From a bacterium (GTDB lineage Bacteria > Desulfobacterota > Desulfocorpusculales > Desulfocorpusculum): DNA of 64,000 nucleotides. Every line of letters begins with the position of its first letter. The first letter of the stretch is position 1. The stretch covers positions 62,001 through 126,000 of the forward strand of contig JBBFLE010000009.1 in the NCBI GenBank assembly GCA_037481695.1, read 5' to 3'. This document shows positions 1-254 of the stretch, one piece after another. The position numbers and the translations under genes are program-made. The notes beneath the pieces were generated by a model that did no database searches, had not been told where the DNA came from, and was given only the letters and a program-made list of their open reading frames with translations.

Positions 1-198
1 CCAAAGCCCCAGGACCAGAAAGGATCCAGTGACCGCCCCACATATTCCCCCAAACCCCATTCCAGCCGAAAGCCCGCGGCTGAGTCTGAAGGCCGTCTGC
101 TGATCCAGTCCCAAGTTCCGGCCGAAACTGGCCAGAATCGACTGTGTTCAGGCATATCCCTTCCCAAAAAGATCCAAAGCCTCTTGCCTAGCATTCAT
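1..198 (-). CDS. C_GCAxxG_C_C family redox protein, probable selenoprotein (partial, runs off left edge)
   Basis: The ATG at 198 has an AAGGAG ribosome site about nine bases upstream. The first 16 codons (starting MNARQEALDLFGKGYA) are followed by an in-frame TGA at 150-148, and the same frame stays open for 49 more codons to the window edge. The downstream peptide contains TQSILASF, GLDQQTAF and FGGICGAVTGSF, including the CGAxxG motif of the C_GCAxxG_C_C redox family. In that family the TGA position is normally the first conserved Cys (GYxCxQS). Just after the TGA the mRNA can fold an 8-bp stem (143-136 with 129-122) around the loop AGUUUC, 18 nt from the TGA with a G in the first two loop bases, as in bacterial SECIS elements. 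Selenocysteine is therefore the preferred reading. A broken gene or a sequencing error cannot be excluded. Any remaining conserved Cys would lie off the window. Confidence 0.72.
120..150 (-). promoter_or_regulatory. Candidate bacterial SECIS hairpin downstream of in-frame TGA
   Basis: On the minus strand, UUCUGGCC (143-136) pairs with GGCCGGAA (129-122) with one G-U pair and no bulge, leaving the loop AGUUUC. The loop begins 18 nt after the UGA at 150-148. Bacterial SECIS elements sit immediately downstream of the UGA and carry a G at the start of the apical loop. Both conditions are met. Confidence 0.6.
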
Positions 199-254
199 GG
201 AACCTTTCTCCTTTTTCTCAAAAGACCACCAAATCCCTTGAACCCCGGCCTTTT

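Follow-up and report, generated by a model that had tools for sequence, protein, structure and literature searches.

A predicted C_GCAxxG_C_C family selenoprotein and its relationship to the split-Soret cytochromes

The gene and its family

The window (the whole stretch of DNA analysed, 64,000 nucleotides; G000:C9:62001-126000) comes from a 4.1 Mb draft genome in 52 contigs, and at its left edge lies the start of a minus-strand gene of the C_GCAxxG_C_C family, which opens with an ATG at window positions 198-196, 9 nt downstream of a Shine-Dalgarno-like sequence (Table 1). The reverse complement of the part inside the window translates as MNARQEALDLFGKGYAUTQSILASFGRNLGLDQQTAFRLSRGLSAGMGFGGICGAVTGSFLVLGLW, in which U stands for TGA. 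The reading frame is unbroken to window base 1 and continues past the left edge to a TGA terminator ending at C9:61752 (L002:7752), giving 148 amino acids in all; the TGA at codon 17 is the one internal stop within the 148 codons and no frameshift was found. An earlier note on this DNA, made from the window alone, had claimed an in-frame TGA at codon 17 in a frame open to the edge, and had proposed extending the gene beyond it; the claim was borne out, and the extension gave a full-length PF09719 protein with no further internal stop. On the opposite strand past the left edge (L002:6224-7713) are found genes for an Fe/Mn superoxide dismutase whose leader is twin-arginine-like and for a metallo-beta-lactamase-fold protein.

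Table 1. Features of the predicted selenoprotein gene and their coordinates
Feature	Position	Strand	Basis
C_GCAxxG_C_C (PF09719) predicted selenoprotein gene, first 66 of 148 codons	window 1..198	minus	frame reading
Same gene, remainder left of the window	G000:C9:62000-61752	minus	frame reading
Internal UGA, codon 17, predicted to be read as Sec; first conserved Cys of the family	window 148..150	minus	
CGAVTG motif, residues 53-58, bearing the second conserved Cys	window 25..42	minus	
Shine-Dalgarno-like AAGGAG, 9 nt 5' of the ATG	window 208..213	minus	read directly
Bacterial SECIS-like element; inner 8-bp stem 116-137, apical loop AGUUUC 124-129, plus outer 5-bp stem	window 106..144	minus	

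When scored with Cys put at U17, the window protein reached 102.5 bits against PF09719 (cut-off 27), over its full length, and 73.8 bits against TIGR01909 (cut-off 47.4). Its four conserved Cys positions are U17, C53, C100 and C128, all of which are invariantly Cys (or U17) in alignments of the family, and C53 lies in the CGAVTG signature that the earlier note had correctly recognised downstream of the TGA. Neither a CxxCH motif nor an evident export signal is present in the protein, which is probably cytosolic. The same genome holds a second family member, with Cys at all four positions (L206:968-1408, minus strand; G000:C3:294813-295154), which is nearest to the DVU_1555 family (NF045669) but falls below its cut-off (85.4 versus 103 bits).

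Decoding of the internal UGA

The earlier note had proposed looking for selA, selB, selC and selD, and all are present in the genome: a tRNA-Sec with a UCA anticodon (74.6 bits to the tRNA-Sec model), selA (595 bits), a single full-length selB (370 bits) and selD (381 bits; G000:C3:67670-68590, L192). This selD has its own in-frame TGA near the start (AAGUASK), accompanied by a SECIS-like hairpin and falling where SelD proteins bear their active-site Sec or Cys; the SelD of this genome is thus predicted to be a selenoprotein itself. One of the nine FlpD (PF02662) matches in the genome also has an in-frame TGA (G000:C10:10576-10944, L201) and likely represents a further selenoprotein. Judged from its gene content, the organism possesses a Sec system and, besides the window gene, one or more further likely Sec genes.

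The TGA is followed by a hairpin whose inner 8-bp stem (UUCUGGCC/GGCCGGAA) closes a loop of 6 nt (AGUUUC) whose second base is G, and 18 nt separate the UGA from this loop; this agrees with the earlier note, where an 8-bp stem with an early loop G had been placed at SECIS spacing. The bacterial SECIS model comprises a loop of 3-9 nt, a stem of 4-16 bp, G in loop positions 1-2, a spacing of 16-37 nt and an MFE of no more than -7.5 kcal/mol (PMC13188914), and the hairpin of the window gene passes all four rules. The MFE of the 51-nt SECIS stretch is -21.2 kcal/mol (z -3.2 versus dinucleotide shuffles). A pass under these rules should by itself be considered weak evidence, as the family peptide favours such hairpins: the -7.5 cut-off is passed by 40% of synonymous recodings of the same peptide, whilst the energy of the actual hairpin (-18.6) is matched by only 4 of 2000. 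Across the homologues, the rule is passed by 43 of the 45 genes with TGA versus 55 of the 114 with Cys (p = 8e-8, a value which ignores the kinship of the genes).

The distribution of codons among relatives was assembled from a survey of the phylum (395 genomes, 195 of them with homologues, in which the loci were read for about 90 matches) and from 80 named loci from GTDB genomes. Of the 159 distinct homologous genes, 45 have TGA at codon 17 and 114 have TGC or TGT, with no other codon at this column, which agrees with the placement, in the earlier note, of the TGA at the first conserved Cys of relatives. The TGA genes are spread over many families and extend to the Chloroflexota (L138, L145 and L156). 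At least 12 changes between Sec and Cys were counted on a quick tree, and supported branches require 6 of these, although the count is approximate, the tree having few columns and many open forks. Exchange is seen even inside one genus, in which L026 has the Sec codon and both L025 and L027 have Cys. The sister of the window gene on this tree is a Sec gene from a Desulfomonilaceae genome (L113, support 85), and no close orthologue was found in the class-level survey of three genomes. The presence of selB does not separate genomes with Sec from those with Cys, being found in 68 of the 72 genomes in the set. TGAs at column 144 or later in the homologues are terminators, and two isolated in-frame ones, at column 34 of L060 and column 100 of L088, fall at non-Cys or frame-broken places and are probably errors or frameshifts.

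This pattern bears directly on whether the TGA is a sequencing error or the premature stop of a pseudogene. The assembly is a draft, and a single wrong base turns a Cys codon into TGA; however, a further 44 genes, from many families and from the Chloroflexota, have TGA at this column, SECIS-like hairpins are present, the frame is unshifted and the other family residues are intact, and we hold this explanation to be highly improbable.

A second alternative is that the UGA is decoded as Cys by a tRNA-Cys of the selC* type. A candidate is present in the genome: the tRNA at L005:1501-1593 on the minus strand (G000:C16:63349-63441) fits the tRNA-Sec model, yet ARAGORN calls it tRNA-Cys (GCA). A U follows its acceptor stem, and it is similar to the selC* tRNA-Cys described by Mukai et al. 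(see the review PMC7609411). Some Desulfobacterales have selC* with a UCA anticodon together with their own SelB*, and these may read UGA as Cys (PMC7609411). Here the anticodon is GCA, which reads UGC and UGU, and it is for this reason that the idea was rejected as scarcely credible; moreover, only one full-length selB is present and the match of the UCA tRNA to the tRNA-Sec model is good. The selC*-like tRNA gene immediately precedes a Sulf_transp (YeeE/YedE-like) gene and a TusA-like gene.

Taken together, the full frame, the sel genes, a column occupied solely by TGA, TGC or TGT and the SECIS-like hairpin strongly support the reading of the window gene as a selenoprotein gene in which UGA17 specifies Sec. 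The codon would be decoded by tRNA-Sec(UCA) with SelA, SelB and SelD, directed by the SECIS hairpin within the coding sequence. An annotation that ended at the UGA would miss or truncate the gene, and the repeated exchange of Sec and Cys at one position offers natural matched pairs in which the effect of selenium could be measured.

Split-Soret cytochromes and a possible iron centre

The four invariant positions of the family have counterparts in the split-Soret cytochromes and their relatives, which possess four conserved Cys besides their haem motifs. Profile-profile comparison (hhalign) of the family with these cytochromes gave a pairwise E of 1.6e-6 and 90% probability; the confident local match covers the first half only, through CGA, and with it the first two Cys, whilst a forced global alignment pairs all four (U17, C53, C100 and C128) with split-Soret Cys, the third and fourth being paired in the global alignment only. 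Independently, L228, a split-Soret-like cytochrome, scores 33.9 bits against PF09719, above the cut-off of 27. Comparison of the family profile with the split-Soret cytochrome c structure 1h21 gave an E of 0.05 only, and a search of the PDB by single sequence returned chance matches only. An AlphaFold2 model of the homologue L159 is all-helical and of very high confidence (pLDDT 95.9); a Foldseek search of the PDB with this model returned no structure at E <= 0.001, 1h21 being absent from the list, and so did not confirm the structural link.

The iron centre of split-Soret cytochrome is reportedly [2Fe-2S]-like and Cys-bound. That split-Soret cytochrome c holds a novel iron centre is reported by Abreu et al. 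(2003). Because of the pairing with split-Soret Cys, and because L228 passes PF09719, we favour reading the window selenoprotein as a free-standing domain that holds an iron centre and uses Sec as one ligand, which is the best explanation as a whole and in our judgement has somewhat better than even chances of being correct. We infer that the domain is small and all-helical; Sec17, Cys53, Cys100 and Cys128 would be the ligands of an iron centre, probably a [2Fe-2S]-type one, whose potential or reactivity would be tuned by Sec at the first ligand position. The tuned centre may then serve an anaerobe in electron transfer, in sensing or in protection. The alignments suggest, but do not prove, that position 17 helps to hold such a centre. 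Two published observations on other family members are only suggestive: in Bacteroides, a member listed alongside an Nramp metal transporter responds to the supply of iron (PMC10434189), and in Desulfococcus biacutus growth on acetone induces another (PMC4103992).

It could instead be that the protein is a selenoprotein without a metal centre, in which Sec17 acts as a thiol/selenol redox nucleophile by the Sec-Cys chemistry of thiol oxidoreductases. Pfam calls the family 'putative redox-active', Sec17 stands at the start of a helix (17-29 in the homologue model), where reactive selenols are often located, and known Sec proteins are mostly redox enzymes (PMC13188914). Against this, the family has four invariant Cys positions rather than two, and each is paired with a Cys of split-Soret cytochrome c, for which an iron centre has been reported. 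We regard this alternative as a real one, if rather less than evenly probable. The redox enzyme or carrier inferred in the earlier note is thus a putative function only, and the homology with split-Soret cytochromes points to an iron-centre domain.

Two split-Soret-like cytochromes c themselves have an in-frame TGA at the first conserved Cys of the domain: L224 (G131:C1:1809699-1810478; ENKGUGNGVW) and L228 (G144:C8:200026-200796; EKGGUGAGAW). Both have a SECIS-like hairpin after the TGA and selB in the genome, and from their sequences they are possibly a new selenoprotein group; the literature searched, which is a part of all literature, contained no mention of split-Soret cytochromes together with selenocysteine. 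The broader proposal, that C_GCAxxG_C_C proteins are stand-alone split-Soret iron-centre domains in which Sec replaces one of four Fe-S-type ligands, both here and in an uncatalogued Sec branch of split-Soret-like cytochromes (L224 and L228), is put forward tentatively, its chances falling a little short of even. The split-Soret link gives a testable cofactor hypothesis for a family of unknown function. A native Fe-S-type centre with selenium among its ligands would, if true, be unusual.

Comparison with known systems

With split-Soret cytochrome c (NF047622; PDB 1h21) the window protein shares a homologous domain, its four Cys being arranged in the same order, but it lacks the CxxCH haem motifs and any evident export signal, and it scores 11.8 bits against the NF047622 cut-off of 400. 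It has the same domain as the DVU_1555 family C-GCAxxG-C-C protein, although its score for that family (NF045669) is 56.7 bits versus a cut-off of 103. The N-terminal domain of the HUGP/GUXX-star fusion selenoprotein (NF045501) is also homologous to the window protein, and one such protein (L086/L205, E 1.3e-68 to NF045501) has Sec at the same column 17, within H-U-G-P. The window protein instead has A-U-T-Q and no C-terminal GUXX* part, and it matches only positions 9-148 of the 236 in that profile (44.6 bits, cut-off 325).

No difference was found between the window protein and the C-GCAxxG-C-C family proper (TIGR01909/PF09719), with which it agrees both in the cut-offs passed and in the four Cys positions. 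The earlier note had been uncertain whether Sec members of this family had already been described. They have: NCBIfam names TIGR01909 the 'C-GCAxxG-C-C family (seleno)protein', and such selenoproteins are already listed in the reviews PMC9312934 and PMC13188914 (forms 1 and 2). Given these sources, together with the HUGP/GUXX-star proteins that have Sec at the same column, the use of Sec in the family is already known, and the window gene is a further member of it and not a new kind.
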